NCBI RefSeq assembly: GCF_035046485.1
Contig: NC_085137.1
Span: 317,265,164 to 317,329,163 of the forward strand
Reading direction: 5' to 3'
Length of the DNA: 64,000 nt
Source: Aedes albopictus
Lineage: Eukaryota > Arthropoda > Insecta > Diptera > Culicidae
Shown: one piece after another, positions 19,703 through 55,010 of the stretch
How the letters are laid out: every line of letters starts with the position of its first letter
Position numbering within the stretch: position 1 is the first letter of the stretch
Program-made: the position numbers and the translations under genes
Notes under the pieces: model-generated
What the model was told of the DNA's origin: nothing
Databases searched by the model: none
What the model saw: only the letters and a program-made list of their open reading frames with translations

Positions 19703-20075
19703 ATGGCTGGTCCAAACCGAGGCATGCCTGCCACCCACTGCTACACCCAGGCCGATTTGCGTCCCACGCTGAAAGATCCCCGCTGCAATCCGAATTTCCC
19801 GCTGGCCGCCTACTGGCCCGTGTACCTGGGTAACTTTTGGTGCGACGTTTACACCCAGCGCACCGAACGCATTCAGGAGTACTTCGGCTCCAAGGGCCTG
19901 CTGGTGCGGATGGTTTTCAGCCGCAGTGGAGCGTGCGATCCCTTTCTGAAGGAGCAGAAACGGTGCCAGTGTTACGATTTTCTCGTATATTTCGTGAGCC
20001 AGCAGGACGCCCACGATGCGGTTTACTACTGCAACCGGGACATGTATTACGGACACCGGCTGAACGTGCTACCAG
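19703..20075 (+). CDS. RRM-like protein, shared 5' coding exon
   Basis: The ATG (context GTAAAATGG) lies 13 bp after the acceptor. The exon encodes 124 residues plus one base and ends at a strong donor ACCAG|gtgagt. Residues about 38-124 resemble an RNA recognition motif: RNP2-like VYLGNF (~40), a helix RTERIQEYFGSKG, RNP1-like CYDFLVYF (~93), then a helix QQDAHDAVYYCNRD. Both RNP motifs keep aromatic residues that contact RNA. Several Cys residues are unusual for an RRM. If the donor is not used the frame reads on only to a TAA at 20090-20092. The donor's phase-1 G joins each of three downstream exons (29279, 43016, 54340) to make GRxP. RNA binding is inferred; no named orthologue is claimed. 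Confidence 0.82.
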
Positions 20076-20272
20076 GTGAGTGGACAATTTAATGAAAAAA
20101 AAAACTTCCGATGACGTCCAAAGCAGTCTATAGGGGAACGGGGGGTACGATGGCTGTATATTGATTCATTTTCATCGACATTTTAACTATATGAATTAGC
20201 ATTCACTTAGTAACGATGAAATTCAATAGCATAATTTGTTATTTATTTATTTATATAAGAACTATATCCTGT

Positions 20273-20816
20273 TAGGGGCCTGTCCATTAACTACGTAGAG
20301 GTGGAGGGGGGATCTGGCCAAAGTCTACGCCGTCTACGGTCCATACAAATTTCGAAAATTTCGTATGAGCGAAAGTCTACGAGGGGGGGGAGGGCAGGGG
20401 GGTTTGTGGTCAGAGATGGAAAAATTTGAGTCTACTTGGCTTATGGACAGCGCCTAGTTAAAACTTTTGCTCAGGTCAAAGAACCGATTTTTGACAAAAG
20501 TCTACGAGGGGGAGGGGGGGGTCTAAGATGACCAAATTTTGGTCTACGTAATAGAAATACACTAGAACTCCAATGGCGCTGTAGTCACTTTTCTCATTTA
20601 TTTATTTTAATAACGTTAATTGCAATAATTTACTATTCTTTAGTGACCACCTTGTAGAGGACCTTTTGTTTTGGTAAACAAATTTAACTTGACAATTCTA
20701 GTACCGCTGCTGACGCTGTAAGGGCGTGGCAAACTAGATGTTAGTCACACGAACAGTCGCGACATTGGACTTCTGTGGCTAGTTATTCTACTGTCTACGT
20801 GGTTTATGAACAGCCC
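20273..20816. mobile_element. Compound TIR element, GGGGCCTGTCCATTAA type
   Basis: The left end AGGGGCCTGTCCATTAAC pairs with TTATGGACAGCGCCT (to 20455) and also with a second right end TTTATGAACAGCCCC at about 20816. TCTACG and G-rich blocks (GAGGGGGAGGGGG) recur. It is probably two related elements, one inside or next to the other. Related termini occur at 21696 and 23494. Confidence 0.6.
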
Positions 20817-20849
20817 CAAAGAAGATATAAATATAAGCTAAATACTCCA

Positions 20850-21262
20850 TTGCACGGTGACGTCTTCAAGAAATGCTCTATTTCTCTCCTACGGAAAATT
20901 AAAAAAACAACAGGACCAACACCGTCAAATTAGACAGGTACTGGTCCTGTTGTTTTTAACTTAAACTCTGAAAGAGCGAAAGAGATAGAATTTCGCCGTG
21001 AGGTGATCTATAAAACTTGTAGGGTAGGACGGGCAAGATGAGCAATTCTATTCTATAGGCAAGATGGTGAATTCTATTTAAACACTTATGCCGTTTTTCT
21101 TTTTGAACCTGGGTTGGAACTGGATTGGCGGAAAATGTGTAAACAAACAACTACAAACAAACTTTAGTACAAGTGAAACCGAAGTCGGGTTGGGGTTGAA
21201 ACTGTGATCTGATCCAGTTCCAACCCAGGTTGGAACTGGATAATGAAGAAAAACGGCATTAA
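20850..21262. repeat. Two neighbouring fold-back sequences
   Basis: At 20860-21005, AACAACAGGACCA pairs with TGGTCCTGTTGTT, with weaker outer pairing. At 21087-21262, ATGCCGTTTTTC and GAAAAACGGCAT pair, as do AACCTGGGTTGGAACTGG and CCAGTTCCAACCCAGG. Confidence 0.7.
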
Positions 21263-21695
21263 ACAACTTCCCATAGAGAATGTTCATCCAATTTGAATAT
21301 GAACCTACTTGATGTAAGATATTTACACTGAGACAACTCTCCCGATCACAGTTATATGTCAGTCATATATTACTGCACTATTGGAATATCATACGAACCT
21401 AATCTATGGTTGAAAATGGGAAGTGAGAGTTATATGCGTCGCATGTGGTATGACTCTCAGATCGCCGTGATATTGTTATATCATGTCATGCATTTTGCTT
21501 CTTTGATGTGGGCTGGGTGTGTCAAGACAATGTACAGGGGGTTGCCAAAATGTTTGAGATAGGCAACTTATTTTTATCTCACAAAAAAGTTCAATATGCT
21601 ATGCAGGGAGAAGTAGTGAGGGACGCCAAACCAAGGTGTAAAAGAGAAGGAGCCAAGCGCGAGAAAGACGACGCGCTCGTCATCAAAACAGAACA
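21263..21695. other. Unassigned intronic sequence
   Basis: No gene or repeat recognised. Confidence 0.4.
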
Positions 21696-21719
21696 GGGGC
21701 TGTCCATTAATTACGTAAG

Positions 21720-21978
21720 TGTTGGGAACCACTGATCAGCTCAGCATTCTCTCTCTATACTGCTCGCTCACCGAAGGCGATGAGTCTGCCTTTCGGTTGA
21801 TGCACAAAGTAGTTAATTAGGATTAGAAGTATTGTAGTCGTCATCTCGTATACGTGTCGCGTCTTAGTCATGTAATTTTAATGTTCAATAAAGTTACGTT
21901 TTTAATGTTTTCCGTTTACACCTGGAGGATCATTACACTATCATGTGTCTCGGTCACCCCAAACTCCAGGTTATAACA
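21720..21978 (+). repeat. 5' LTR, 259 bp
   Basis: TG...CA ends. Contains AATAAA (in GTTCAATAAAG), the probable poly(A) signal. Confidence 0.88.
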
Positions 21979-22048
21979 GTGGCGACGAGAAATCCGTGAC
22001 CGTGCGTGCAAATACGGAATCGCGACGCATTTTTCCGCGGAGGAGAAG

Positions 22049-22702
22049 ATGGACGACAAAATGGAATATCAGATGCAGCGCCAACATCCAGCGTCAATAA
22101 CTGGATACGATCTACACCAGCATCAAGTGGATCAGCGGCTGCATTCGCCAGTTCTGAAATCAACACACCGGTACATTGACAATCCATCATTCCCATCTTC
22201 AACATCATATCAACCCGTGGAACATCATCCTCATCAGCAGCACCAGTACTTCCATCAGCCCAATTACTCGCATCAACCGCCAGCTGGATTCAATGGGCCA
22301 TTCATCATCAGTTCGTTATTGTGTTATGCGCAGCCAGTGGTACAACAAACACCACTGCCACCTTCGACCGTTCAGTTCCCACTCGGTCAGAAGCAGTCGG
22401 AGCAGTACATCCAGCAGATGCGAGAAGCCAGCGACAGGTACTTTGAGAGTATGCAAAAGCTGCTGCAGCTACAGTATGAAAGTAATATGGAAGCAATTAA
22501 CCTGCAGTTCCATATATTTTCGCTGTACTTAAGTACCGTGCGCCAACCACAACACTCAATCAACCAACCGAACGTTCCCGTACATGCGAGCTTCCAACAG
22601 CAGCAGCAGCAGCAAAACGAAGCACAAAGAACCATTGTTCACTCGGTCGCCGTACCTACACCACCCGTCGGCATAAGTGAAATTAAAATCGAAAACAGTT
22701 AG
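22049..22702 (+). CDS. Gag-like Gln/His-rich protein of the LTR element
   Basis: A 217-residue frame starts 70 bp after the LTR. The first 100 residues are rich in His, Gln, Pro and Ser (HHPHQQHQYFHQ). Residues about 112-165 form a likely amphipathic helix (QYIQQMREASDRYFESMQKL), and a Q7 run follows. No zinc knuckle. Position and LTR context suggest a Gag remnant or chimera; no motif proves it. Confidence 0.5.
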   Translation: MDDKMEYQMQRQHPASITGYDLHQHQVDQRLHSPVLKSTHRYIDNPSFPSSTSYQPVEHHPHQQHQYFHQPNYSHQPPAGFNGPFIISSLLCYAQPVVQQTPLPPSTVQFPLGQKQSEQYIQQMREASDRYFESMQKLLQLQYESNMEAINLQFHIFSLYLSTVRQPQHSINQPNVPVHASFQQQQQQQNEAQRTIVHSVAVPTPPVGISEIKIENS

Positions 22703-23088
22703 CAGCACGGGCATTCGACAGGGGTCTCCAAATCACTCGGTGTCGTTTCATGCAAGCCGTTGATTAAAATCAATAATTTGCGACAGACTGACACTGGAAG
22801 GATCGGTGCTCATAAATTGAATCGGCAGAAGTATATGCAGCACCTGTTAGATCGAAATGGACACCGAATGGATTCGCCAAGAAGACGGTCAATTCTGCAC
22901 AGCGATGTTTTCGAATGGATGGTCAACCAGAGTCGGATCGGTAGACGTTTGATGTTATTCCGTGCCATCGTTCCCGTTGCCCTGATCATCGACCACGCAA
23001 TCATCACGATCATCCAACCATCATCGTTCTTCATACACCAGAAGACCGTCGCTATGGTTAACTCCGTCAACCAATTAAAAGGGGGAGA

Positions 23089-23347
23089 TGTTGGGAACCA
23101 CTGATCAGCTCGGCATTCTCTCTCTATACTGCTCGCTCACCGAAGGCGATGAGTCTGCCTTTCGGTTGATGCACAAAGTAGTTAATTAGGATTAGAAGTA
23201 TTGTAGTCGTCATCTCGTATACGTGTCGCGTCTTAGTCATGTAATTTTAATGTTCATTAAAGTTACGTTTTTAATGTTTTCCGTTTACACCTGGAGGATC
23301 ATTACACTATCATGTGTCTCGGTCACCCCAAACTCCAGGTTGTAACA
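23089..23347 (+). repeat. 3' LTR, 259 bp
   Basis: Matches 21720-21978 except for three substitutions, one changing AATAAA to ATTAAA. Confidence 0.88.
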
Positions 23348-23494
23348 GTAAGGGAATTTTTGCGATTTTTCGACACCCCCTCCCCCCCTTGTAAGATTTT
23401 TTGTATGACAACCCAAAATTTTTTTGTATGGCGCGTAAGATTTCTCAAAACCTCCCTCCCCCCATAAACCCTTACGTAATTAATGGACAGCCCC

Positions 23495-25029
23495 ACAGTC
23501 GAAGTACTCGGACGTCTTTAACCTTCCGTAACTCGCGCGGTTGACTACCTGCGTCAGCACCACGCTAATGCTGAGTACAAAAAGCGAGATTTTTTCAACG
23601 TGTTGTACAGAATACAACAGCGCGATCGTTCGACGGTTAAGAAAGCCGCATTGAACAAATCACAGTGCAGGTCAGGTGATGCAGCTGAACCTGAACCGCT
23701 GTGACGCGGCTCAGCAACTGCTTTCTTAGGCGGTTTCTGAGTGGAGAACGGATATTGCACAGAGGTCCAATTTTAAGAAAAGCTGGCAGAAACTCAATGT
23801 TTGTACATGTCTTTTATGGGATACAGTATATTGAGCAATCATGCATAATACCAGGAGCACTAACTGGCATTTAAAAAAATGGAAATATTGATTTTGTATC
23901 TTGTTACAGTACTGTATAGCTGCTAATGATAAAGTTCTGAATTTTCGATAAAGAACACAAACAAGTTCAACCACTACAAAAGTCTATTGATGTAAGTAAT
24001 ACAATTGCTTTCAAAAGTTTATTTGTAAGTTCTTGTGTATATCAGACATCTGCAATGGGGCAAGAGATCAAAATAACAGTTTTGGCTTCAAAATTGACAT
24101 TACATGTCAGTAGTACGAAAAATTCTTACAGTTCGACTTCAAAGTGTCTTGCAAATCGCTCCCCGCTACTCCCCGCGCGGAGATTCCGTTCAAATGCTCG
24201 TTCATATATGCGAAATCGATTAAAGAAAAATGCAACTGCCAAGAGCTGCCAAAACAATAGCGCCATAATGACATGTGTATACTAAAATGTGTATGTAAAA
24301 CATCATTTTGTTCGAAGGAATCGACAAAAAATGAAAATGCTTTCAAAATTAAATTTAGCGCTAAATCATGTTCCAATCAGGGATTGGCGGCATGCACCGT
24401 GCGGTGCGAAAAAAGCGTGTGCTTCACACAATCGCAAGTGCTCGTCTCCCGTTTTGCCGAGAGACAAGAGACGTATGAGTGAGAGCTTTCGTAATTGTGC
24501 GAGAGACAATTGCAGCACTAGCTCTACGGCGCAGGGAGTAATGCACGGTGCTTGGACTGCGCTTGTCTCCAAACAGAAAAAATCAATTAATAAATTAATT
24601 TAAGAGTTTGTGTTTTCGTCAAAGTTGTTAAGCTTGTCAAGGGTTGACAAGTGATGGGTCGTTTGATTCGAAATTTTTCCAATCGTGCGTAGTATCAAGC
24701 CAAGTGCTAAGCACGGAGACAAGCACCGAGAGAGTGCATACGACAGAGCGTGAGAGCTCCAGCGCGCGGCAAAGTAAGCGAGCAACACACAACCGATTGC
24801 GCGTACTCGTCTCCTTCTAGTTTGTTGTGCTGTCTCGTAGCAGAGTGTGCGGCACGCAAAGAGTTTTGAGTCGCACCCTTTCCCTGGTTCCAATACACTC
24901 ATATAGGCTAAAACTAGCAGACTACTATGATTTGGCAATTTTTGCCAGGTATTTTCAAATTTGGACCACTGTGTATCGTCATCATAGCGGACCCACTACG
25001 AGTACCCGCCGGCAACGGCAATTAAGCCG
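23495..25029. other. Unassigned intronic sequence
   Basis: 24370-24900 is richer in GC and has loosely repeated GAGACAAG / CTTGTCTC phrases in both orientations, perhaps an old TIR element. No coding pattern supported. Confidence 0.4.
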
Positions 25030-25260
25030 CGGATGGGTCCAGAAAAATGGCAGCGATATGAACGACGGGTAAATACCCCGTCCAGAAGTTGGTGTTTACT
25101 ACCCATGAGAGGTAGTAGACACCTACTACGTTGTCGTCAAAGTGAACGGGGTCTTCTTCTGTTGCTGCTAACCGCCTCCGCGGTGGTCGATCGAGCAGTT
25201 CACTGGACTGTATGACGAACGTGCTAACAGGGTGAAGGCCGGTGGTAATAGCGGTTGGCG

Positions 25261-25881
25261 TTAACCCTCTAATACCCAACCCCGCCTTTAGACGGGGTAT
25301 AGTTTGAGCATTTTTGTATTTTTTGTTTCGTGGAAAATCAAAATTTTTATATTTTTGGCTGATATTTAGGAATGTTTTGTATATCTCAAAATAGTTTTTG
25401 GTGTATTTTAAAGCGTATTTATATTTTTTTAAATCATTGAAAAATTGGTGTTTAGTCACCTTTTCGAAGTCATTGTTTATTTTGTATTGAATCGCTACAA
25501 TTAACATATTTTAAATTTTTCTCAAATCATTCTACCCTAGTTAAATAGTTTAAGGTAATCGAATACACTCTAATATTATTTTCCTTAAAATTACACGGAA
25601 AATAAAATTTTCTATGAAAAAAAATTAACTAAAAATATTTCAACAACAATCATAAAATCTCAAAATGTTTTCATCTCAAAAAATCCGTACCCCAAATAGG
25701 CTTCCAGGAAAAATATAAAAGTATGGGTATCTTCAAAAATAAAAATTAGAAAAATCAAAAACTGAAATTCACGAAATCGAAAATTAAAAAGAATCATCTT
25801 CCAAAACATGTTTAAATCGATTTTAGATGACGAAAAACGATATTTAGATCAAAATCAAAAATTTGGGTATTAGAGGGTTAA
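25261..25881. mobile_element. piggyBac-like MITE (TTAA, CCCTCTAATACCC ends)
   Basis: TTAA CCCTCTAATACCCAA at the left and TTGGGTATTAGAGGG TTAA at the right, exactly inverted. TTAA target plus CCC-start fits the piggyBac group. The interior is AT-rich with no transposase. Confidence 0.8.
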
Positions 25882-26093
25882 TGCTTGAGTCGCGTAATGG
25901 AGAAGCCGCTTCACGAACGAGCGGGATCAGATCCTGCTAGAGACGCTGGCCATATTAGATGTCGACTTGGCTAATGTCGGTACCAAGAGTACCTTTAGTT
26001 GAAACGGTGCGGAGTCGATTATTGACGTGACTTTTTGTAGTCTTGCCCTAACAAGGGGTATTTGGGGAGGTGCTCCACAATGAGCGAAACTTA

Positions 26094-26452
26094 TAGGACA
26101 GATCGGTGAAGTACTAGATTTGTAGTAATGAGCTGAATTTTAGTATGGTGAGAAGGTCAATTCTCCGTTTCTGCAGTGAAATGGTGCAAAAAGCGTGGGT
26201 ATTATGATTCCTTGCCTAATTTGATGCTGTTTGAGCAAAACTTTGGGACACAGTGTTGTTGTTTTCTCAATTTCTTGCAACATAAACAACACAGTAATCC
26301 AAAGTTTTGCTCAAACAGCATCAAATTAGGCAAGGAATCATAATACCCACGCTTTTTGTATCATTTCATTGCAGAAACAGAGAACTGATCTTCTCACCAT
26401 ACTAAAATTCAGCTCATTACTACAAATCTAGTACTACACCGAACGTGCCCCA
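26094..26452 (-). mobile_element. Fold-back MITE family F360, copy 2
   Basis: Reverse orientation relative to 10345-10704. Ends TAGGACAGATCGGTGAAG and CGAACGTGCCCCA, flanked by TTA. Confidence 0.85.
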
Positions 26453-27172
26453 TTAGGTTTTGACGGCGACGAGCTGGTAGCGGTGCTCTCGCGTGCGTGT
26501 GATGCGACCATGCCTAGGCGAGTCCACCCTATAAGTGGGAGGCCACCGGCTTACTGGTGGACCGACGCGATTGCGGACCTGCGGCTCGCCTGCCTACGGG
26601 CTACGATCAGAGGAAGAGTGAAACGAACGGCGGGTGGTGTTCGCCGCTGTAAAAGCCTGAACTGAAGACAGATAAGATCAAGCTAAAAGGCCTGCTTTGA
26701 AGGTCTCTGCCAGAGTGTCAATGCGAACCCGTGGGGTGATGCCTACAGGATCGTGATGGCCAAGACGAAAGGTGTAATGGCTCCTACAGAGCAATCTCCA
26801 GAGATGTTGGAGGGGATCATCGAGGGGCTTTTTCCGCGTAATGATCCTAGTCCTTGGCCTCCTTTCGTAGAACAGCCAGGTACTGGGACTGGCGATGAGG
26901 AGAGGGTCACCCATGTGGGACTTGCAGGGATAGCAAAGTCCATTAGTGTAGGTAAGGCCCCAGGTCCGGACGGAGTTCCGAGAACATCCGGGTACCTGTA
27001 CAAGATTCTCCAGTTATTTCCAGAATCTAGTACAAGTTTACGACACGAAGGTGGGTCGGAAGTGATCTCGCATCTAGGGATACCCGGGTACCTGTACCTG
27101 TACGGGTAACAGATTCTCGGAAGTTACTTCCAAAATCGAGTACTAGTTTACGACACAGAGGTGGGTCGGGAG

Positions 27173-28025
27173 TAGAGATGGGCAATCAGAACCGGAGCCG
27201 TTGAAAAGATCCGGATCAGTGAACTGAGCGAGTGAACCGTGGCTCTTTTCTAGAGAGAATCGGATCACACGTCCGCCTGCCTCTGTACGAAATACCCGGA
27301 AAAAGAACCGTTCGCTTCTTTTTGCATCGCATTGCCACACCACCGACACATGCTTTTTCCTCACGCAAAGCAAACACAGCTAAACAGCGGTGGTTCCATA
27401 CGCTCACCACCACAGTCTTACCAAACGCATTCTGTCCCATGGTGAAGACTTCACGCATGCGGTCCACAAACAACGCACACGATGCTCAATCGGGAGAGCG
27501 CAGATCCGACTGTTCTGCTGGCCAACCAACCAGACTCCAACGCAACGATCCAAACCAAACTGCAGCTACTACTCTCACATGTTTACTTCTTTCGTCCAGT
27601 TCATCAGCAATATGTTGTTTGGCGATAAGAAAGGGGGTAATGCGGATGCGGGAATGCCATAACACATCAAGAGAGTGAGTGTCGTATAGTGGTTTCTGCT
27701 TTTAGTGGTGTTGCGTGTACGTACACGCTGCATTACACGAACACTACCTGAGCTACTGGTTGAAAATAGTAAACAAAGATCAGCTGTTCCCGGCAAAATC
27801 AAATGGGCATATTTTCAACCAGTAGATTTGCATTAGTGTTCGTGATACCGCGCTGCGAAACCACTATGCTGTGTCTGGGAGAATAAGCTGCAAGCAATCC
27901 TATTCGCTCGGTGCGGTTCGGTCATTCATGTCTGAGCCGCAGATCCGTTCAAAAGATCCGGTTCACTAGAGTGATGGATACGGCTCGGATCCGATCACTG
28001 AAGTGAGCCGTTTTGCCCACCTCTA
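27173..28025. mobile_element. Non-autonomous hAT-like element (853 bp)
   Basis: Ends TAGAGATGGGCAA and TTTTGCCCACCTCTA; exact 8-bp duplication GTCGGGAG (27165-27172, 28026-28033). The ATGGGCAA termini are typical of hAT elements. Interior has subterminal AAGATCCGG/CCGGATC motifs and a hairpin around 27735-27845 (CTGGTTGAAAATAG paired with CTATTTTCAACCAG). No transposase. Confidence 0.85.
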
Positions 28026-28290
28026 GTCGGGAGTGCCGCAAGGTTCCATCCTGGGTCCGGTGTTATGGAATGTCATGTACGACGAGGTGTTGAGGTTAGA
28101 GTTCCCGGTGGGAGTGAGGTAGTGAAGCTGACTACTACCCACTTGTGGAGTCATGGATTAGGTCAAGGAAACTAGAGTTGGCTCGCCACAAAACTGATGT
28201 TTGATGGTTGTGAACAATCGGAAGTCGGAGCAGCAAGCGGTGATCAGGGTAGGCGACATTGCACTATCACGTTGATTACATCTGTCTGTA

Positions 28291-29278
28291 AAAGAGCCTA
28301 CAGCTATAGTGACACTGGGCCGTTGAATCCGAAACCAGGCTCAGATTTTCTCCAGCACGTAACATTTTTGAGCTATACCTCAATTTATACATAGTGCAAA
28401 ATATGCGATTTTGGGCTTTCTTGATTGCAAGCCAATAATCATGGATTTTTTTCAAGCAATCAGAGGGTAAATTGGTTAAATAACATCTTAATCAACGACG
28501 CATGCAAAATATTTCGTGTTACCATATCAAATTTGATAGATTCAAGTATTTTAATAAGTAAACTTGCATGCAACTTTTGGAAGATAACTTGTATGGGAAA
28601 TATCGTACACTATGGGAAATCGAGCGGCGCTTGCTAACTAATCTGTCGTCAAAGCCCAGTTTAGCTAGCGGAAGCTGTACCTGGAAATTTGAAATATAGT
28701 GAAGAATTCGCTCATAAATTAAAATAATGCTAATAAAAACCAAAAATAAACATAAAAATCGAAATACGAACAATTGAAAAAAAAGTGTGCAAATCGGTCA
28801 ACTAGTTTAAATGATGTCGTGATTACCGCAATAGCACTTTTTAAAAACATCATTTCAAGATAATCGCGCTTAAAGTTTCGCGCTTTGCCTTGTCCCGGAG
28901 GGTACAATGGCTGTAATTTTGGCTCTAGGCTCCAATATTTATGGAATTTGGAATGTGTATTGACTAGCTAGACAATACTTTATTAGTTCGACTTTTTTTT
29001 TATTCCCGCAAGATTTGTAATCCCTTAATTGGACAATGTTGTTACTATAAACTAAATTCTTGTGTAGTGCGCTCGTGAAGATGCACTGTTCCATCTTACC
29101 CCGGGTTACCCTATATTCAGTTTGATAGTAAGCAGATTTTAAAAGCAAAGTGGATGCATAGCTTGTTTGAAGTCAGATTTTTCGACTGTTTAGTATAAGT
29201 CGCGGTATATTACCAACATTAAGGTTTATAACATATCTACTCGAGAAAATCACCTGAACATTGCTCTACCCTCCACAG
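28291..29278. other. Intron between the shared exon and terminal exon A
   Basis: AT-rich, no feature recognised until the acceptor ctctaccctccacag ending at 29278. Confidence 0.5.
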
Positions 29279-29889
29279 GGCGAATTCCCGAGTACTTCAA
29301 CGTGTCGGTAAGCGTCAAACACTCGCTTATGCAACCCGATAAATTGTCGGAAATGGCCGAGCAAGCTTTCGAACGCTACATCTACAACATCTGCAAGGCT
29401 CGAATGCAATGCATATTCAGGCACTCCGATACTAAACTGCTGGCCGAATATTTCTCGCCGGATGACCGCACCATGGCGCTGAAGTACTGTATGATCGCTG
29501 CGCCTGAGCTGATCGCCATGAACCAGCAAAAGCAACGCTTCTTGGAACGCAATATTGAAAATGAGATCCTGGCCTCCATCCAAGCAAGTCCCAAGCTCAT
29601 GGACATGCTTCCGCCGGGTAACATCTTGCAGGCCCTGATGAACGGGTTCCTTCCGCAGAGCACCATGAGCTGGAAGACTCTAAGCAAGGTGCCCTATATC
29701 AGGAAGATTCGCGTCTTCGGTCCCGGAAAGCGTAGAAAGGCAATGCGACAGCAAATTTACCAACAGGCCAAACAGCTATTCGGTGTTGATTGTGACAAAG
29801 AGTTTCCCATGTCGGAAGAGGTTCGAGAGAGCAAGAAGCAAAGAAACCTTGAAATGAAAAAGCTGAAGAAGCAGTCCAATGTTGGTTAA
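29279..29889 (+). CDS. RRM-like protein, alternative terminal exon A
   Basis: The acceptor ccctccacag|GGCGAATTCCC joins the exon 1 G to give GRIPEYF. The exon encodes 203 residues to TAA; isoform A is 327 residues. It shares anchors with exons B and C: FERY, RH, DR, KQRFLE, EI, ML, LQAL, WKT and FGV. Identity with B or C looks near 35-40% by eye. A helical, basic end (KKQRNLEMKKLKK) suits nucleic-acid contact. The order helix, strand (QCIFRH), strand (LLAEYFS), helix (DDRTMALKYC) could be a second, partial RRM-like unit; this is inference. The intron from the shared exon is 9.2 kb. Confidence 0.8.
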
Positions 29890-31249
29890 ATCTTTTTTTT
29901 TTCCTACCCGTTATGACGAACCGTTTATCTGAATTGTTCGAAATATGTTTAATTTTCTAACAAAATAATATTGTTAGCATTCTGAAGATTTTTAAATGGA
30001 TTATAACTTCTCGTATTGAATTTGAGTTAATAAAATAACTGTTTTCATCTTCAAATTTGTTTCACTATGCTACTTTTATTATGCAGTTAAGCCGAAAATA
30101 CCAATATGACTTTTTAGCGGTTTTCAGAATGGTTTCATAAATTTTTCTAATTACTCGTTTCGTTTACCAAAACTTTTCCGCTCATCGTAGCACTCGGTAG
30201 TCTCCCAACCGGTCGCATTGCTTGTGCTTCACCCGGCAGAGCATAAGTGTCTCACTGGTGCGCGCTAGTCTCTCAATGGGTGCGGGCGCCGATTAATTGG
30301 ATTTAAGTGGTCGAATTTGTTATCCTCTCTCATAAAACATAATTATCATTCTATTGGCGTGCACCACTATTGAAAAATGCGGTTTAAAAAGTGTTTTAGC
30401 ATAATGACTCATAAATGAAACGAAAATCCAAGTGTATCATTTCATGTTTCATACACACTTGTTTCTGTAGCAGCAGCGAACGAGTGAGTTGCTGGGTGAA
30501 AGATGAAGCATCACAGCAGTCCGTTCGTATGGGAAACGATTTGCTACAGCCGTCGTACGTCATGTTTTCCTTTCGAAATTGCACGACCCTGGTTACAAGT
30601 TTGTAATACAGTGTCCGTCGGGAATATACATTCAGTGAAGCTAAGTTCAATAAATTCAGTCGTTATAATAGAAGAATAAGTGTATCAGTTTAACCGTCAA
30701 ATAAATGTTGTAATCGTTCAGAACATTATGTACCCATTGCCTAATCAGTGCTCATTATCACCGCGATTGTAATCGTTCAGAGTTTGACAAATTCCGACTC
30801 CCACCACAGACGCTCTTATGTGCGAAAACAAGTACTTCATTGAGCACTTGATTAGCTTGAAGAACACAAACACGGGAGACTAAGACAACCACGTCAATGA
30901 TCCAATTTCGTTTTATCAGCACATTTTGCGGCCATTATAACAAAAGATATGCTGACAACAATGCCTGTCACTGGGCTGAAGACAACAGAGAAATCAACTA
31001 CGTCGGACCAAAGTAACGGAGGAAATAACTACGTCAGTGTAGCAGAGGAAGGTGGCCAAAGCCGGAAGGAGGGGGATTTAGACTAGTGGTCTAGGCTTTT
31101 GCCTCTCAGTAGGTCATGAGTTGAATTCCCACACCCTTCAGGGGTGAGTGAAAAACAGTCTACGGACTATGAAAGTCAGCATTTGTTATACACGGTGGGT
31201 GTTACTTAACGCACACCTCGATTTTTCGGCTGCCTTGCATCCCATTGTG
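29890..31249. other. 3' UTR of exon A and unassigned intronic sequence
   Basis: Beyond the poly(A) signal no gene or repeat is recognised. 30180-30300 is GC-richer without a coding pattern. Confidence 0.4.
30029..30034 (+). terminator. Poly(A) signal AATAAA after exon A
   Basis: 140 bp after the stop. Supports exon A being a true last exon. Confidence 0.6.
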
Positions 31250-37817: not shown

Positions 37818-37979
37818 TGTTCAATCCTAGCAATCGCAGCAATCATTGACTGCGGTGCTTGAGAAAATTATTTGATTCGAAGTGTAACTGTCAGCTAGAA
37901 TAAACGTATTATAATTAGCACTACTTTTCGCAAGTTTTATTTCTGGAAGTTTCCGGAAGTAACTGGAAGAAACACTTCA
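37818..37979 (+). repeat. 5' LTR, 162 bp
   Basis: Unusually short LTR, identical to 41375-41536. Confidence 0.92.
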
Positions 37980-38038
37980 GCTGGCGACGAGGAAAGTTCT
38001 GGATTTTCAAGAGCTCCAGAATTGAACCCGGAAGAAGG

Positions 38039-39239
38039 ATGGCAACGAACGAAGAACTCCAAGCAGCGATTCTGCAGATGACCCGGCTACTCCAGCGGTT
38101 GGCCGTTCCTCAAGCAACCAACCCCGAGCAGGTACTGGAGTCACTGTCGACCAACATCAGCGAGTTCAGTTTCGATCCGGAAAACGGCACCACTTTTGAA
38201 AAATGGTTTGCCCGTCACGCGGATCTGTTCGAGAGCGACGCGCGAAGTCTGGACGATGCAGCCAAAGTTCGGCTTCTGCTCCCACAGTCGCTACGTCAAC
38301 TATATCCTTCCGAAGCTACCGAGGAACGTTTCGTTCGCCGACACCGTCAAGACGCTGACGAAAATCTTCGGTAAGCAAACCTCCGTCTTCAACAAGCGAT
38401 ACCAGTGTTTGCAGCTGGTCAAATCCGAGACGGACGACATCATCAGCTATGGTGGCAAAGTCAACAGGGCGTGTGAAGAGTTCGAGTTTCAAGACCTGAA
38501 GATCGACCAATTCAAGTGCTTGATTTTCGTGTGCGGGCTCAAGGCACCACGCTACGCGGACATTCGAGCAAGGCTACTTTCCCGCATCGAAGGTGAAACG
38601 GCAGAAGCGCCAGTGACGATCCAGACTCTGATCGATGAGTTTCAGCGGCTCGTCAACCTCAAGTCGGACACCACGATGATCGAACATCCATCAAGTTCGA
38701 AGCAATCGGTCCACAGCGTTTCGGAGAAGAAACCTGGAAATCGTCCACCGAGAACGGAAAGCAAGTCAAACCCTCGTACTCCCTGCTGGCAGTGTGGTCA
38801 AATGCACTACGTGCGTGACTGCTCATTCTCGGACCACCTGTGCAAGGTATGTAATCGCGTCGGCCACAAGGAAGGCTACTGTGGCTGCGTGAAAAAGTCT
38901 TCAAGCGACTCTTCAACTCCACCCCGTGAGAAGAAGCAGTACCAGAAGAAGAAGAAGCCCGGTTCCAGATTTCAAGCCAAAGGAATTTTCGTGAACCACA
39001 TCGCAAACACTACCCGGCGGCGCAAGTACGTGACCATCAACAACGTCACTATTCCGCTACAGCTGGATTCCGCAAGCGATATCACCGTCATTTCCAAGGC
39101 AACGTGGCAACATCTGGGACGACCGAAGCTGACTCCGTCATCGATTGAAGCATCTAACGCATCCGGTGGACAACTCGCTCTCATCGGCGAATTCAATTGT
39201 GAAGTCACCCTCAACGGGTGTTCGAACGTTTCTCGATGA
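38039..39239 (+). pseudogene. Gag-protease region of the Ty3 element, frameshifted
   Basis: Starts MATNEELQAAILQMTRLLQR. The frame is lost near 38280, and the homologous reading continues one frame over with RYVNYILPKLPRNVSFADTV. Two zinc knuckles follow, CWQCGQMHYVRDC (~38790) and CKVCNRVGHKEGYC (~38842). Then a basic stretch and a retropepsin active site LQLDSASDITVIS (~39060; DSA in place of the usual DTG/DSG). The reading stops at 39239, at a deletion joint. Confidence 0.85.
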
Positions 39240-41365
39240 TGCCATCATATTCGGACCAACTTGGGAAGCACACAAGGCGTCTCTGGACATGCTACTGCAA
39301 CGTCTGGAGGAATATGGATTCCACGTCAAGCTGGAGAAATGCCGGTTTTTCCAAACCGAACTAGGCTACTTGGGGCACATCGTGGACTGCAACGGCATTC
39401 GCCCGGATCCGGAGAAGCTCCAAGCCATCGCCTCCATTCCGGCACCAACCAACGTTTCCGAACTGCGATCATTCTTGGGAGCCGTTAACTTCTACGGCCG
39501 ATTTGTTCGGTGCAGTAATCTTCCACGAATTCCCCAACGGACATCTGAAGGCAATCCAGCACGCATCAAGATCCCTCACTCCGGCGGAACAAGGTTACGG
39601 GCAGCCGGAAAAAGAAGCACTGGCACTCACCTACGGCGTAACGAAGTTCCACAAGTACCTCCTAGGACGCCGATTCACTCTTCTGACGGACCACAAGCCA
39701 CTGTTATCCATCTTTGGTTCGAAGAAGGGTATTCCATTGCACACCGCAAATCGCCTTCAACGGTGGGCGTTAATGCTCCTCAACTACGATTTCGACATCC
39801 GCCACGTGTCCACCAACGACTTCGGGTGCGCCGACATGCTGTCCAGGTTGATCGACCGTTCCAAGCAACCCGAGGAGGACTACGTCGTAGCAGCGATTTC
39901 CCTGGAAGAAGATTTGGTAAGCATTATCCACGACACTATCGACCAGGTACCAGTCTCTTTCAAAGCCATTCAGGAAGAGACGAAGGCAGATGAAGCTCTA
40001 CAAACGGTGTTGAAGTTCATCCGTGACGGTTGGCCAAACGATGCACGGTCAATCACAAACCGCGATGTTCGTCCGTACTTCAACAGGCGGGAATCCCTCA
40101 CCCACGTCGACGGGTGTATATTGTTCCACGACAGGGTTGTCGTTCCAAGCAAATTTCGAAGGCAAGTTCTGAAGCAATTTCATCGTGGACATCCCGGCAT
40201 GGTACGCATGAAGTCGATTGCCCGCAGTTTCGTCTACTGGCCGGGGATCGACAACGACATCGAGGATTACGTTCGGCGGTGCACTCCATGCTGCACTGCG
40301 GGAAAGGCACCAATCAAAACAACGCTTGAATCATGGCCCATTCCAGACAAGCCGTGGTCCCGCATCCATGTGGATTACGCCGGACCTGTGGATGGTGTAT
40401 TTTTCCTGGTGGTGGTGGACCCGTACACCAAATGGCCTGAAGTGTACGCAACGAAAACTACCACGACGAAGACAACAACGAAGCTACTCTCTCAATCGTT
40501 CGCAACGTTCGGAGTACCGGAAACCATAGTATCCGACAATGGTACTCAGTTCACCAGTCACGAATTCAAGACGTTCTGTGAACAGCATGGCATCCGCCAC
40601 GTCCGCACTGCACCATTCCATCCACAATCCAATGGGCTAGCAGAACGGTTCGTGGACACGCTGAAGCGGACTCTTCGGAAAATTCGATCGGGAGGAAACA
40701 CACTGGAGGAAGCGCTGCAGACATTTTTGCAAGTTTACCGGTCAACTCCAACGGCCGACCTCGGTGAAAAGTCTCCTGCAGAGGTGATGTACGGACGACC
40801 GATTCGTACAGTTTCGACGCTGTTACTACCGCCCAAGCATTCCGCACCAGAACTACAACCGGAGGCCAGAAAGCAGAACGAGCGTTTCAACAGAAAACAC
40901 GGAGCAGTTTCGAGGCAGTTTGCTCCCGGCGATTCCGTATATGCTCAAGTCCATCAAGCGAATTCCTGGCAGTGGCAAGCCGCCACGGTCATCGAGCGTA
41001 TCGGCAGTACAACGTACAACGTTTTCCTGGAGGATCGTCAGAGGCTCATCCGCTCGCACACAAACCAGCTCAAGCACCGTGCGGTTGACTCTGTTCCAGA
41101 TCCTGTTCCGAGCCAAAGTTCAAGCCCACTATCGATATTCTTCGACGGTTTTGGATTAGATGTAGCATCTCAAGCAGTTCCGAATCCGGCACCCGCCGAA
41201 CTGGATCAGCGCAACCTGGAAATAGGAACAGACGAGTCAGAATATTTTTCCGAAGATGACGATGAAGAACCGCCTCAACCAGATCCAGTACCAATTCCGG
41301 TTCCGGCAAGGGAGCGGCGGCAGACCCGTTTACCAGCAAGATTCGAGCCCTACTGGATGACTTAA
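39215..41365 (+). pseudogene. Pol region of the Ty3 element, with two deletions
   Basis: A first joint removes the N-terminal half of reverse transcriptase; the reading resumes at FLDDAIIFG (~39232, active-site DD) and LGHIVDCNGIRPDPEK. A second joint near 39505 removes the thumb and the start of RNase H; the reading resumes GAVIFHEFPNGH, and TDHKPLL follows. The integrase is continuous to 41365: zinc-binding HRGHPG and RRCTPC, then core Asp (IHVDYAGP), Asp (VSDNGTQF) and Glu (NGLAERF). A C-terminal acidic/proline tail follows. The last 620 codons are open from 39503. Confidence 0.88.
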
Positions 41366-42720: not shown

Positions 42721-43015
42721 CAATGAGCGAACCAAGTGGAATGTGATCTGGAATATTGTGGCGTGTTGATTATGTGTAATCCTAATTGTGATGTAGTGCA
42801 AATAAATGCATGGGCATTATGTATTTTTGATTATAATCCTGCGAAAATTTTTCTTGTAATCAATTTATTCTCTTTATGTATCCCCTTTGTCCCCTAAATT
42901 GCAAGCAAAGATCTTTTTTTTGGACAAATATTCGACCCTATGTACTTACTAACGGCTAAAGTTTTATAATTTAATTTGACAATCTTCCCCAAAATTGTTC
43001 TGCACCCGTTTACAG

Positions 43016-43638
43016 GCCGTATACCCGCGCCTTTCGATGTTTCAAAAAGCGCCAAACACACGTTTTGGCAACACGAACGATTAAAACTGGAGGAGCAGGT
43101 TTTCGAACGCTACGTCAACGATGAAGTTGGCGCCCAAATCTCGTGCATCGTGCGGCACACCACAGAAGATGTTCTGGTGGAGTACGCTTCCGTAAACGAT
43201 CGCAACAAGGTCATCCGGAGCTGCCAGATCGCCTTACCGGGACCAATCTCCGCCTTTCAGGCGAAACAACGCTTTCTCGAACAGAACGTCGAGATGGAAA
43301 TAATGATGTGGATGCAAGAGAACCCAGGTTTCATGAACATGCTTTCGCCGAACAACGTTCTGCAAGCATTGTTCAAAGGAGTGCTTCCGAACGTTAACCA
43401 GAGCTGGAAAACAGTCGTCAAGCTGCCACCGGCCATGAAATTGAAAGTCAAAGGTACAAAGGAACGTAGGCTTTTTCTCAATAGACGAATCTGTAATCAA
43501 GCTATGAACCATTTTGGAGTACTTTGCGATTTCGTACATGTTGTTTCGGGTGAAGTACTTGAAGCACGGGTACAGAGAAGGCAAGCGAAAAAGGATGCGA
43601 AGAAGGAAAAACGTTTGAAAATGCAGGCGCGACAGTAA
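43016..43638 (+). CDS. RRM-like protein, alternative terminal exon B
   Basis: The acceptor acccgtttacag|GCCGTATACCC joins the exon 1 G to give GRIPAPFDVSKSAKH. 207 residues to TAA at 43636-43638; isoform B is 331 residues. It shares long blocks with exon C, such as GAQISCIVRH, DRNKVIRSCQIALPGPIS and KQRFLEQNVEMEIMMW, with roughly 60-65% identity by eye. The tail is basic (RRQAKKDAKKEKRLKMQ). No stop or frameshift occurs, and exon-intron junctions and phase are conserved, so it is unlikely to be a pseudo-exon. The intron from the shared exon is 22.9 kb and would require skipping exon A. Confidence 0.8.
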
Positions 43639-43799: not shown

Positions 43800-43805
43800 A
43801 ATAAA
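43800..43805 (+). terminator. Poly(A) signal AATAAA after exon B
   Basis: 162 bp after the stop. Confidence 0.6.
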
Positions 43806-44067: not shown

Positions 44068-44137
44068 GCAGGCGTCAACATCCCGAGAACCTCTGCAATA
44101 GCTACTTTTCGGCCAAATTCAGAACTACTTCTGGATG

Positions 44138-47348: not shown

Positions 47349-47583
47349 CTACTCGTTACCTGGCTGTTGTTGCTGTTGATTCTGCAGAACGTACTGCTTT
47401 AACGTCCACGCCTCGTGACCGTAGAAAGCAACCGGAAGAATCAGCGTCTTGTATAGAGCGAATTTCGTTTGCGTTTGCAAGTTACAGGACCTAAACTGGT
47501 TATGTAATTCGTGAAAGGCCTTATTCGCAGCTGCAATACACACTTTTACTTCACGGGAAACTTCATTGTCACATGTCACAAGT

Positions 47584-47867: not shown

Positions 47868-47931
47868 CATGTCACAAGTGTTCCAAGAAAAACAAGTTCA
47901 ACAATATCAAACACCTCCCCACCCAACTAAC

Positions 47932-49496: not shown

Positions 49497-49696
49497 CATC
49501 CATCACTACCTCAGCACTATCACCACTAGGTCTGCCTCTGTCTCTACCCGCTATCATGTACTTCGTCTTGGTACACTGATAGACAGCTTGCGGTAGTGAC
49601 GAGCACACAAATGTTTTCAAATTTACCATGGCAAAACGTGATCATCGACCAACAAACGCTTCTTGTGTGCGTTTTGTTTCCTTACTGATCAACCGG

Positions 49697-49767
49697 TTCG
49701 ATAGCCGAGTGGTAGCGTGCGAGCCTGGTGATCTCAAGGTTCTTGGTTCGAATCCGGCTGCCAACAG
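49697..49767 (+). repeat. tRNA-like segment (SINE head or tRNA relic)
   Basis: TAGCCGAGTGGTAGCG and TTGGTTCGAATCCGGC match A and B boxes at normal spacing, but anticodon and acceptor stems do not close convincingly. Confidence 0.45.
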
Positions 49768-49954
49768 ACACTTTTTTTAATTGTAAATCGGGTCCATGGT
49801 AGAATTGAAAACATAAATCTGTTGAGATGAAACGAAAATCAGTCTGCACAAATCAAGTGGCGTTGTGCATTTAAGTTGACCCTCGGAATAGTAATTTCAA
49901 CTGCAAGCCGCCTTTCAGTGTATAGTTAATCGTCAAGCCTATCCTCGCGTACTT

Positions 49955-50640
49955 CCCTGAAGACCTACCCAAAACAGTCAAATTCTGGCGGATTATGTGA
50001 AAATTCAGGCTTGGAAACTGTACGACGATGTTTTGAGCAAAAATTACATGTGCATAATCATGGATGATGGCACGTATGTCAAATTGGACTACAAGGCACT
50101 TCCAGGGGCACAGTTTTTCACTATGAAGCGTGGCACGGATGTTCCGAATTAGGAGAAATCGATTTTTTGCGAAAAAAAATGGGAAAATGTGTTGTTTTGG
50201 TAAGCAATTTGTCAATGTGGTATGAAATCATCTCCTTTCTTTACCGTCCCAAGTATGAACGTCGAAATTTACCAGAAGGAATGTCTCCAGAAACTTATTG
50301 TGCCGCTCATCTGAAGCACAAAGGTCCTACATTATTTTGGCCGGATTTGGCATCCTGCCACTATGCGCGTGCAACCTTTGACTGGTATGAAGAAAACAAT
50401 GCAAATAAAGCCCATTGAGAAATAGTTAACTTTGATGAAAAGGAAACTACGGAAAAGGATAGAGGAGCAGAGGACGTCACCAAATTCAAGAAAAACTGGG
50501 TCAACCAAGGCAAAACCATCGTCGGGACGGTTGTCCAAAACCTTATGAAGAACACCAAGAAAAAGTGCGAGAGGTGGCGGTGCGATAACTGCAAATTTGT
50601 TGCACTTACCGGACTTGCAGTGTATATAAAAATGCAGTGG
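49955..50640 (+). pseudogene. Tc1/mariner-type transposase remnant
   Basis: Decayed frames spell IIMDDGTYVKLDYKALPGAQ (first catalytic Asp, ~50055), then WPDLASCHYARATFDWYEEN (second catalytic Asp, ~50345), then PIEK (~50410), the usual site of the third acidic residue. About 20 codons between the last two are missing. A basic end with FKKNWVNQGKTIVGTVVQNL and MKNTKKKCER follows. Multiple stops and frameshifts make it non-functional. Ends not identified. Confidence 0.8.
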
Positions 50641-51821
50641 CATACGTGGGACCGCGCATAACTTCCCGGATAAAAACTAACCATAGGGTATTTGATGAAA
50701 ACCATTCCTGTACCATACAGTGTACCAGCTACAATATAGTGTATTGTAATGGAATGGTTCGCTAGAAGCTTTGCACATTGGTAGCTACTATACATTTACA
50801 TCCGATCTTTATGTAACAATATATTATACTGTTTTTCTTACGTTTGAACCATTCACTATTCCGAAACAATATTTTTCCGTGCATTTTTAGTTATTTATTT
50901 TAGTTTATGATTTTTTTCGTGCTTTGTTTTGTTGATGTTCGTGACTTTTTTATTGCAAAGGAAATGAAAAAGAAAAAAGTGAATAAGTTGAAACAATAAG
51001 TCAATAAAATGTTTAAATAAAGTGATAAACCAGGTGTCCTAAGGACTGCATATCCAAGAGATATGGTGGGCTAGGTATGTAGAGTGCGATGAGAGGAATA
51101 CGAATGTAGGTCAACCCGGAAAGACGCAGGCCAGATTACCGTAAATCAGTGGATGAGTTCAACACTATTCTTTCTCCTCTTCTCTCATGTGAAATTGCCT
51201 TGTACAACAACCGAATTAAATGAGATTTATCTTTGACATTTTTAACATAAGGACTGGACTGGACACTGAAACGACTTCTGATATAAGTTCGTTTTCGCTT
51301 TTTAACCTAACTTATAGTTGAATCGAACTTGACAGTTTTCTCATGAGTTGTTATGTACATATTTCATAGTTCAGTCAAACTGGAGCCTCAATATTGCAAT
51401 AACGGTTAAGCACGCTGTAATGATACTTATGTACCTCGTCACTCACTTCATGCAACAACATTAGTGGTCTAATAACACTTAGCGCGCTAGGCATAGTTCC
51501 ATCATGCCGCTCAAAGTGTTGCCACAAATAATGCTTAGTTTGCAAAACCCAGTTATCTGGCTGGTGGGACATGGGAGCCTAAGCGTCAACTGTTAATGTA
51601 ATCAGAGGCTACTCAGACTTAGACGAGTTTAGGTAAGTTTGGCTAGAACTGCCATTATCGAAGGAACATGACGAGATAATATAACATTATATGGTTTATC
51701 TAATGTAAAACAATACAACATAACAAAAGAGAACCATTCCAAAACCATGATTAAATTTATAACCAGTAGGGAAATTACAATTAAAAACAATATATTTACG
51801 GTACATTTAATTGTTTGAAAC

Positions 51822-52043
51822 TATAGATAGTAGAGTAAACATAGATCCGTGATGATGAATCCGTTGTATCCAAACGAACTGTCAAAATCTGTATCCAAAC
51901 GAGCATGACGTCATGATTCCAACAACACCGATGGAACGAATGACGTCATATTCAGCCGCCGCACTCTTGAAAAATACTATTCACACGCTTGAAACATTTT
52001 ACTCGGCGATGTCCGCGTATCTATGTTTACTCTACTATCTATA
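51822..52043. mobile_element. MITE with perfect 25-bp TIRs (222 bp)
   Basis: TATAGATAGTAGAGTAAACA at the left and its exact complement at the right (25 bp in all). The interior holds GTATCCAAACGA twice and TGACGTCAT twice. Confidence 0.8.
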
Positions 52044-52598
52044 TTTGAAACCATACGTGTACCATACAATGTATGGTATATTAAAGCTCACATATTAGTA
52101 TTTCGAACAATTCATTTACAATAAAATGTATGGTTTTGTAAAAAAATATATATGGAGAAATTTTTTTTATATTGTTACGATACTTACAATTCACTGTATG
52201 GGTGTCTACATTACATCTTATTGTTTTTGTATTTTTTATTTTTACAGTGTTGTTTATTGTAACAAAATGGTTCTAAATAGTACTGTTACAATACAACATT
52301 CGGTTTTTCTACTGTATTTTTTATTCGGGTTGCGAACGGATGGTCCGATTTGGGTCATCTGAGTTTTGTTCTGTTAGTTTTCACCCAAGGAAGGTTTATG
52401 AGGCAAAAAAACACGGAAAAAAAATGAGATTTTTTGAAAATTGGGTTTTTATACATTTTGAACGGGGACTTGGACTTGGCTAGGAACGTCAAAAAACGCA
52501 GTAGGCAAGACGAAAGTTTGCTGGGGACAGCTAGTTAAATATACAATGATGTCATGGGCTCTTCTGATGGTCAATAAACAATGTAATTGAATTTGATT

Positions 52599-52720
52599 TA
52601 CAAAATAAATAAAACATTTTCAAGTACATCAATTTTCAGGTGTACTCATATTTAACGATAATTTAATTTACAAAATAAATAAAACATTTTCAAGTACAGC
52701 AATTTTCAGGTGTACTCATA
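52599..52720 (+). repeat. Tandem duplication, ~70-bp unit
   Basis: TTTACAAAATAAATAAAAC followed by TTCAAGTACA and TTTTCAGGTGTACTCATA occurs twice with one or two changes, and a third partial start follows. Confidence 0.85.
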
Positions 52721-53427
52721 ACACAAGTTTACAAAATAAAACGAAAGTCGTGAACTTCTGTCAACGACCAAAATTTTTGAAGCACAATTTAGTGCTGATT
52801 TCGAAACCGACCTTCAAAAAAATTAATGTAGAACAGTTTTTGAGTTTTACCTCAATATCGAGTTTTATAACTTTTCAAAATATGTAATTTACTAAAATTC
52901 AAATATATTGCGTTTTGGTGAACCAATTTTTAATCCTTTTCCATAAATTAAAAGCTGAATACAATACCATTCGATCATCTGAATACAGGTTTTGCGTCAG
53001 ATTGATGAAATTCAAGATATTGGCGAGTTTTGGGGACAATCTTCTTAAATTTTAGCAAAATTCCCAAATTTTTTTAAAGAAATGTATTTTTTTAATAAGA
53101 AAAAAACAGCTTAAAAATTCTTTCTCGACGTTTATTTGACATATCATATGTAGGCGAGTTACAGTAAAAATTTCAGCTCAATCGGAGCATTGATTACAAA
53201 GAATGAGATGTTTGAAGTGAGCGACTTTGCTTAAATATAGAACAAAAATCGATTTCAAATCATCAACGTTGTATGGGAAGTCGAAAAATTTTCCGCTCTA
53301 CTGTATTTTTTTTCCTTCGCGTTTTCGAATTCAGGGCATGATTCTACACCAAAAATGATCATCAGCTTACCGAGTTCAAAAATGCTGTAAACTAGTGTAA
53401 TTAACGATACAGTCCTTACTTATGATC

Positions 53428-54249
53428 GGGTACATACATTAGTATGGGACATGCTTGTATGGAAAAAATAAATCCTCGCTCCAGTCGACTTTTTAGATCC
53501 CATTTAGGTCCCATATGAACTGTACAAAATTTCAGCACAATCGGTGAAACTATAATTTAGCGCAAGCGGTTTGAAGTTTGCATAGGATTTACTATGGGAA
53601 AAGTTACACTTTCAAACAAAAAATCCCAGAGTTCGCCCATTGTCTCCTTAATTCAAATCGATCAACGCTTCTTGTAGAAAATTCATTTATGAAACTTTCC
53701 TTCGAAGACCGTAAAACGATTGGATGCTTGTGGAAAAAGTTATTGATTTATTACTGATTAGTGATCCAACGAACGGCTTTTTGTTTTGTTTTATCAGCAG
53801 CACTGCTGCTGCCGTTGTTGCATGGGGTGGCGGGAGGCATCACCACCCCCAGAGACAGCAGCAGTCAAGGCAGCAGCTACAGTGCTGCCAATAAAACAAA
53901 ACAAAAAGCCGTTCGTTGGATCACTAATCGGTAATAAATCAATAACTTTTGGCACAAGCATCCAATCGTTTTGCGGTCTTCGAAGGAGAGTTTTATTATT
54001 GATTTTTCTACAAGAAGCGTTGATCGATTTGAATAAATGAGACAATGGGCGACCTCTGGGATTTTTTTGTTTGAAAGTTTAACTTTTCCCATAGTAAATC
54101 CTATGCAAACTTTGAACCGCTTGCGCTAAATTATAGTTTCACCGATTGCACTGAAATTTTGCACAGTTCACATGGGACCTAAATGGGATCTAAAAAGTCG
54201 ACTGGAGTGAGGATTTGATGTTTGTCCCATACTAATATACATGTATCCC
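53428..54249. mobile_element. Fold-back element with ~380-bp arms (0.82 kb)
   Basis: GGGTACATACATTAGTATGG and CCATACTAATATACATGTAT are near the ends. Arms pair almost throughout; the centre (~53820-53870) is a CAGCAGCA-rich stem. It ends 90 bp upstream of terminal exon C. Confidence 0.85.
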
Positions 54250-54339
54250 AACTGTTGTTACTCCCTGTCACTTAATTTGCAAATAAAGTTGATCATTTCA
54301 CAAATTGTCCAAATATTACTTTGTACTCGTTGTTCACAG

Positions 54340-55010
54340 GCCGTACGCCCGCGCCTTTCGATGTTTCGAAAAGCGCCCAACATACGCTTTTGCAACCGGA
54401 ACGAATGCAACTAACGGAGCAAGTTTTCGAGCGCTACGCCAACGATGTGCTTGGCGCCCAAATCTCGTGCATCGTGCGACATTCTACAGAAGACCTTATG
54501 GTGCAGTATGCTTCGGTTGATGATCGCAATAAGGTCATCCGGAGCTGCCAGATCGCTTTGCCAGGGCCAATCTCCGTCTGCCAGGCGAAACAACGCTTCC
54601 TGGAACAGAACGTCGAGATGGAAATAATGATGTGGATGCGAGAGGATGCAGACTTCATGGACATGCTTCCGCCGGACAACGTTTTGCAAGCATTGTTCAA
54701 CGGACTGGTCCCCGATGTTGACCAGGGCTGGAAAACTCTCGTAAACCTGCCGCCGGTTAAAAAAATGAATATCAAAGCTACCAGTGCTCGTAGATTACAT
54801 CTCATAAAGCGCGTCCGTATTCAGGCTATGCAACGTTTTGGCGTGGTTTGCCAGTTTGAACGCTGTGATCCGGATGACGTACTTCTCAAGCGATCGCAAA
54901 AGAAACAAGCAAAAAAGAACAAGAAAAAGCTAAACCCGGTAAAACGTTTCACAATGCAATTGAGGAGCAACAATGCGGTTGAGAGGGACTCATCCCTCTC
55001 ATCAAACTGA
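54340..55010 (+). CDS. RRM-like protein, alternative terminal exon C
   Basis: The acceptor cgttgttcacag|GCCGTACGCCC gives GRTPAPFDVSKSAQH with the exon 1 G. 223 residues to TGA at 55008-55010; isoform C is 347 residues. It is closest to exon B (shared GAQISCIVRH, DRNKVIRSCQIALPGPIS, KQRFLEQNVEMEIMMW), so B and C arose from a later duplication than A. It has the longest tail: a Lys-rich run (KKQAKKNKKKLNPVKRF) then an unrelated Ser/Asn-rich end. It starts only 90 bp after a long fold-back element. The intron from the shared exon is 34.3 kb. Confidence 0.8.

Follow-up and report, generated by a model that had tools for sequence, protein, structure and literature searches.

A single Aedes albopictus gene, LOC109420815, very probably makes three proteins by alternative choice of its last exon in cis. 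The gene lies in the 64,000-nucleotide stretch of DNA analyzed here, referred to as the window. The first coding exon, common to all isoforms, would encode a first RRM domain (RRM1), and its single donor would be spliced in cis to any one of three last exons that arose by duplication, each bringing its own acceptor, stop codon, and polyadenylation signal together with a different RRM2 and a basic helical tail. All three isoforms would be used in the animal, with the last exon chosen through competition of splice and polyadenylation sites. Exchange of RRM2 would then alter which RNA or protein is contacted, and RRM1 would keep a partner common to all isoforms. For Drosophila, the excerpted text of PMC9470587 describes alternative last-exon choice as being set either by splicing or by cleavage-site choice.

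A shared exon and three alternative last exons

The shared exon occupies positions 19690 to 20075 of the plus strand, with its ATG at 19703, and encodes RRM1 as 124 amino acids plus one nucleotide. Its 5' edge at 19690 is placed by acceptor consensus, and a 5'UTR intron likely precedes it at 19605-19689, as read by eye from splice consensus. The donor after 20075 reads CCAG|GTGAGT and leaves one G over. All three last exons follow on the same strand, behind introns whose limits are set by the donor and acceptor sequences. An intron of 9.2 kb (20076 to 29278) leads to last exon A (29279 to 29889), with a predicted RRM2, a helical basic tail, a stop, and an AATAAA at 30029. Longer introns with 3' limits at 43015 and 54339 lead to last exon B (43016 to 43638; RRM2 assigned by homology to A and C, tail, and stop; AATAAA at 43800) and last exon C (54340 to 55010; predicted RRM2, long basic helix, and stop; AATAAA at 55206). 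The acceptors read ag|GGCGAATT in exon A (first base 29279), ag|GCCGTATA in exon B (first base 43016), and ag|GCCGTACG in exon C (first base 54340). Coding remains of an LTR retrotransposon (RNase H and integrase; 37919 to 41365, plus strand) lie in the intron between A and B and do not belong to the gene.

The spliced coding sequences of isoforms A, B, and C measure 984, 996, and 1044 nt, all multiples of 3 with a terminal stop only, and give proteins of 327, 331, and 347 amino acids. The junction codon is Gly in every case, followed by R-I-P in A and B and by R-T-P in C, and the nearest AATAAA lies 140 (A), 162 (B), and 196 nt (C) past the stop. These values agree with the first-pass annotation, which had described a donor at 20075/20076 leaving one G, three in-frame joins reading GR(I/T)P at 29279, 43016, and 54340, and a separate stop with a nearby AATAAA for each last exon. 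The anatomy of alternative last exons is present at this locus: a shared donor, followed by last exons that each have an acceptor, a compatible phase, a stop, and a polyadenylation signal.

The three-isoform reading is already an NCBI annotation. A protein search (13 rows) returned Ae. albopictus LOC109420815 isoforms X1, X2, and X3. Isoform A equals X3 (P0005) and isoform B equals X2 (P0002), letter for letter, and isoform C is 98% identical to X1 (P0001), with 6 amino-acid differences that all fall in exon C. The earlier proposal that one RRM exon is swapped onto three alternative last exons is therefore matched by proteins already on record. LOC109420815 carries the name "uncharacterized," and the names give no domain, history, or mechanism. 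What is new here is that each last exon is predicted from structure models to encode a second RRM-fold domain plus a basic tail, so that the splice would fall between RRM1 and RRM2.

A family profile, built from 36 of the 43 relatives and including NCBI's versions of the same three isoforms, matched, within the window, one RRM1 exon (E of 4.5e-51) and three RRM2 exons (E no worse than 2.3e-70). The next-best E values in the window were 0.68 for the RRM1 profile and 2 for the RRM2 profile, and reversed-sequence controls reached at best 0.24 and 0.95, respectively. Chance open frames are ruled out by this comparison. Additional last exons were also sought in the window and 60 kb downstream, where no match below an E of 0.23 was found outside the known exons. 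Rfam gave no match across the window at gathering scores.

It is quite improbable that the last exons are three separate genes or decayed duplicates, with a single genuine isoform and with B or C as independent or decaying copies. This reading draws on the recording of B/C-type exons as stand-alone proteins, Ae. aegypti AAEL012022 and the ENA protein P0006, both of which start at an internal Met; we infer that these are truncated models of B/C-type proteins. Several observations argue against separate or decayed copies. Searching the whole assembly (1.34 Gb) with the RRM1 exon returned 12 matches at an E of <=0.001, of which one was on its own chromosome (C2), leaving no other RRM1 match there at that threshold. 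Queries with exons C and A returned 6 matches each at an E of <=0.001, and among the matches listed, the 3 on the same chromosome all fell within the window. The RRM1 match and the three RRM2 matches lie within 35 kb on one strand. In frame, the last exons have their first ATG at codon 17 (A), codon 93 (B), and codon 22 (C), with none upstream in the open frame; therefore, no last exon alone encodes RRM1, and exon B alone cannot encode RRM2, since its first ATG lies past that domain. In NCBI's naming, too, the three are isoforms of a single gene. Independent genes for the three last exons are thus unlikely, and a single gene with alternative last exons remains the preferred reading.

Other Ae. 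albopictus loci of the family are on C1 and C3. LOC109412511 (P0004) was considered as a second intact copy and rejected: its identity to window C is 99% over 59% of the length, after which the reading appears to go out of frame. Because the RRM1 exon at 100% identity occurs once in the assembly, with the next match at 50%, P0004 is probably a haplotype copy from another assembly.

Building proteins through swapped last exons is of a known kind. In Drosophila, the shared 5' exons of pipe are followed by alternative last coding exons that are homologous duplicates and encode an enzyme domain and not an RRM, and lola joins constant 5' exons to one of many alternative 3' exons. The products of lola and mod(mdg4) have BTB and zinc-finger content. 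Drosophila mod(mdg4) likewise combines constant 5' exons with a choice among several alternative 3' exons, and there the joining is by trans-splicing, as described in the excerpted text of PMC12692577, whereas here RRM1 and three RRM2 modules stand in cis order. A mod(mdg4)-like mechanism would give the last exons their own promoters and trans-splice them to the common exon, instead of joining them in cis across introns of 9-34 kb. The precedent itself, the long introns with their retrotransposon remains, and the separate records of B/C-type exons in Ae. aegypti and ENA all speak for such a mechanism. However, with all parts on one strand, in cis order, and with consensus sites, trans-splicing is not needed, and we consider it very improbable beside cis choice of the last exon.

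Predicted domains and possible partners

Predicted models of isoform A and of X1 contain two RRM folds per isoform. The RRM1 fold covers residues 38-124 in both, and the RRM2 fold covers residues 136-201 in the model of isoform A; the model of X1 (P0001) has a pLDDT of 87.5 and a pTM of 0.81. The locus had earlier been described as swapping C-termini. The swap onto last exons stands, but these are not plain C-termini, as the models of A and X1 place an RRM-fold domain in each.

Structure matches included U2AF65 and PABP, which are tandem RNA-binding RRM proteins. The DBHS proteins NONO, SFPQ, and PSPC1, which combine RRM1, RRM2, NOPS, and a coiled coil in one fold, were also among the top Foldseek rows, with TM-scores of 0.18-0.26, an rmsd of >20, and no superposition as a whole. 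At the level of sequence, Pfam RRM_1 gave no match at its cut-off in any of the four window exons, and exon C scored 14.6 bits against Pfam RRM_fung, for which the cut-off is 27. Among relatives, RRM_1 matched 6 of 20 at an E of <=1 (best, 3.7e-4), and two relatives with two units, P0014 and P0026, have PF00076 as a precomputed annotation. PDB sequence searches returned no RRM protein among 7 rows for the RRM1 exon (E of <=10) or among 5 rows for the profile of A1 (E of <=1).

Canonical RRMs carry characteristic aromatic residues in RNP1 and RNP2. Read by eye, RRM1 shows an RNP2-like motif, VYLGNF, in which the usual aromatic is present, and RRM2 has no clear RNP2. Because the RNP1 strand of RRM1, CYDFLVYF, is without two of the usual aromatics, RNA binding by RRM1 may be non-canonical. 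It is possible, though we hold it at somewhat below even chances, that the RRM fold serves protein contacts, so that last-exon choice would swap protein partners and not RNA targets within the same gene model. The absence of two RNP1 aromatics from RRM1 and of a clear RNP2 from RRM2 favors this possibility, as do the scores of the window proteins below the cut-off of the Pfam RRM models. In contrast, the fold matches to U2AF65 and PABP and the basic character of all isoforms (pI of 9.2-9.4) weigh against protein contacts.

Duplication history of the last exons

Protein identity between last exons is 43% for A-B, 42% for A-C, and 66% for B-C, with BLASTP E values of 4e-54, 1e-52, and 6e-98, respectively. 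With identities of 42-66% and all E values at <=1e-52, the earlier description of homologous but diverged last exons with intact frames holds. We built a C-terminal tree of 22 rows (21 of the 43 relatives plus window exon C) and an N-terminal tree of 18. One clade of the C-terminal tree (support of 100/99) contains Ae. albopictus A, Ae. aegypti AAEL012018, and two more proteins. A second clade (91/93, under the mark for firm support) contains Ae. aegypti AAEL012022, Armigeres, and Ae. albopictus B and C, with B and C grouping together (96/97). Armigeres falls beside B and C and Ae. aegypti outside, which is not the expected species order and has weak support (87/69). Because both of these clades include an Ae. 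aegypti protein, the duplication separating A from B/C appears older than the split between Ae. albopictus and Ae. aegypti. The B/C duplication would be younger than that separating A from B/C; the tree shows A versus B/C first and then B versus C, in the order that had been proposed from the sequence, with A oldest and B and C closer.

The dN/dS comparison between exons suggested by the first-pass annotation gave values below 1 for B-C by both methods, at 0.31 by NG86 (bootstrap, 0.20-0.47; 0 of 300 at or above 1) and 0.55 by YN00. The dS values for A-B and A-C were undefined or above 2 and thus saturated, so exon A is not datable by dS. These estimates also bear on the possibility of decayed copies. 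Constraint on C may be weaker, given the YN00 value and the confinement to exon C of all 6 residues that differ from X1, whereas intact frames, a conserved acceptor phase, and the NG86 value count against decay. Between Ae. albopictus and Ae. aegypti, identity is 84% for RRM1 and 67% for exon A, and exons B and C are 58% and 54% identical to AAEL012022, the sole Ae. aegypti B/C-type protein found. RRM1 is therefore better conserved between the two Aedes species than the last exons are.

A divergent culicine family and a candidate second swap

The search for relatives, which needs shared 5-residue words, found 43 proteins. All named members found of this divergent tandem-RRM family are from mosquitoes of culicine genera: Aedes, Ochlerotatus, Armigeres, Culex, Toxorhynchites, Sabethes, Wyeomyia, Malaya, Topomyia, and Uranotaenia, a list that covers named rows only, so the family may also extend to Anopheles and other groups. 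Armigeres was looked up as a culicine genus, and the other genera are likewise culicine. In the literature searched, AAEL012018, AAEL012022, LOC109420815, LOC109412511, LOC134215617, LOC109403083, LOC5572408, LOC6032990, LOC134227760, and LOC129778171 were not found, and AGAP001643 occurred only in PMC7955153. The gene and its mosquito family appear to have been unstudied so far. If use of the isoforms differs by tissue, stage, or sex, the locus would be a compact natural experiment in which the first domain of an RNA-binding protein is held constant and the second varies, and it would add unstudied mosquito RRM genes beside the sex-determining ones. If they are used alike everywhere, it would be an ordinary case of duplicated last exons.

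The intron on which the swap turns (the pivot intron) interrupts the Gly codon in PG|R, ahead of RRM2. Among paralogs, four places have both RRMs within a single exon (L002/L012, L004, L005, and L008/L013). In L030 and in the multi-RRM locus L027, a phase-1 intron interrupts a Gly codon where RRM2 begins, 20 codons 3' of the Gly of the pivot intron; L029 has a phase-0 intron 13 codons 3' of this Gly (both distances by eye), and the intron of L003 lies deeper in RRM2. With paralogs either undivided at this point or interrupted further 3', we rejected the pivot intron as an old intron of the family.

The proteins fle, AGAP001643, and Nix resemble the window family in being mosquito-restricted, divergent RRM proteins, a likeness drawn from published descriptions only; no protein among the 43 carries any of these three names. 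In the excerpted text of PMC7955153, AGAP001643 is the nearest A. gambiae paralog of fle and is restricted to Culicidae, and the introns of both interrupt a codon, at positions that are putatively homologous. The portion of PMC10798136 available places the fle intron at the beginning of RRM2, reports it in one Nix as well, and assigns three RRMs each to fle and Nix. An intron of the kind described for fle, interrupting a codon where RRM2 begins, occurs in the window gene's paralogs L027 and L030. Because these two loci fit the published description, the window gene may come from the broader stock that includes fle and Nix. However, we do not file it with them on descriptions alone, since its own intron stands before RRM2 and not at its start, where the source text places that of fle and AGAP001643, and since each window isoform has two RRM folds instead of three RRMs.

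Two relatives, P0017 and P0022, are likely a second case of last-exon swapping. They share 120 identical residues up to ..GHRLNIFPGR and then diverge, with C-termini that are 24% identical, and the point of divergence is the same GR junction as in the window gene. This coincidence suggests that swapping at the GR junction is either old or recurrent. A broader and rather doubtful proposal is that the boundary between RRM1 and RRM2 is a recurrent swap point in a fast-evolving culicine tandem-RRM family. Duplication of last exons would there supply a single conserved RRM1 with diverged cassettes of RRM2 plus tail (three in Ae. albopictus and at least two in another lineage), by which one gene would retarget an RNA-binding protein, and the family would be the mosquito-specific stock from which the sex determiners fle and Nix arose. 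The contigs of P0017 and P0022 are 1128 and 1263 nt long.

Sequence differences in exon C

The predicted sequences of exons A (29279-29889) and B (43016-43638) match the NCBI proteins exactly, unlike that of exon C (54340-55010), which differs from its NCBI counterpart, isoform X1, at 6 amino acids and from P0006, a stand-alone B/C-type protein in ENA, at 5 amino acids over 201 aa. These differences may represent high within-species variation.

Relatives on other chromosomes

A cluster of relatives (L028-L030) occupies both strands of G000:C3:45508000-45537700 in the Ae. albopictus assembly. Within this cluster, L029 and L028 are the RRM1 and RRM2 exons of one relative, and their spacing of approximately 8 kb makes alternative last exons possible there too. 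On chromosome C1, the loci L002, L008, L012, and L013 (G000:C1:320032344-320042139) are relatives of P0026 (Ae. aegypti LOC5572408), a group of proteins with a tandem pair of RRM1-RRM2 units, and Culex LOC6032990 (P0014) resembles them. L027, also on C1 (G000:C1:167842000-167851900, about 4410-6567, minus strand), is a multi-exon gene whose several RRM-like stretches are kin to RRM1 of the window gene (profile E value of 1.2e-14). A phase-1 intron of L027 splits a Gly codon at the start of the next RRM. L027 is a candidate for the parent gene or for a gene like AGAP001643, the nearest A. gambiae paralog of fle.

Other open frames and repeats in the window

The first intron harbors a Gln-rich open frame of 241 aa (21977-22702) with only a weak, below-cut-off match to SUIM_assoc. 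An acidic open frame of 452 aa on the minus strand (7414-8772) has a weak chitin-binding (CBM_14) match at one end, also below the cut-off. Several frames are open across a 664-bp array of 111 copies of the hexamer TTAAAA (10713-11376), and retrotransposon pieces with endonuclease and reverse transcriptase matches lie 3' of exon C (58583-63865).
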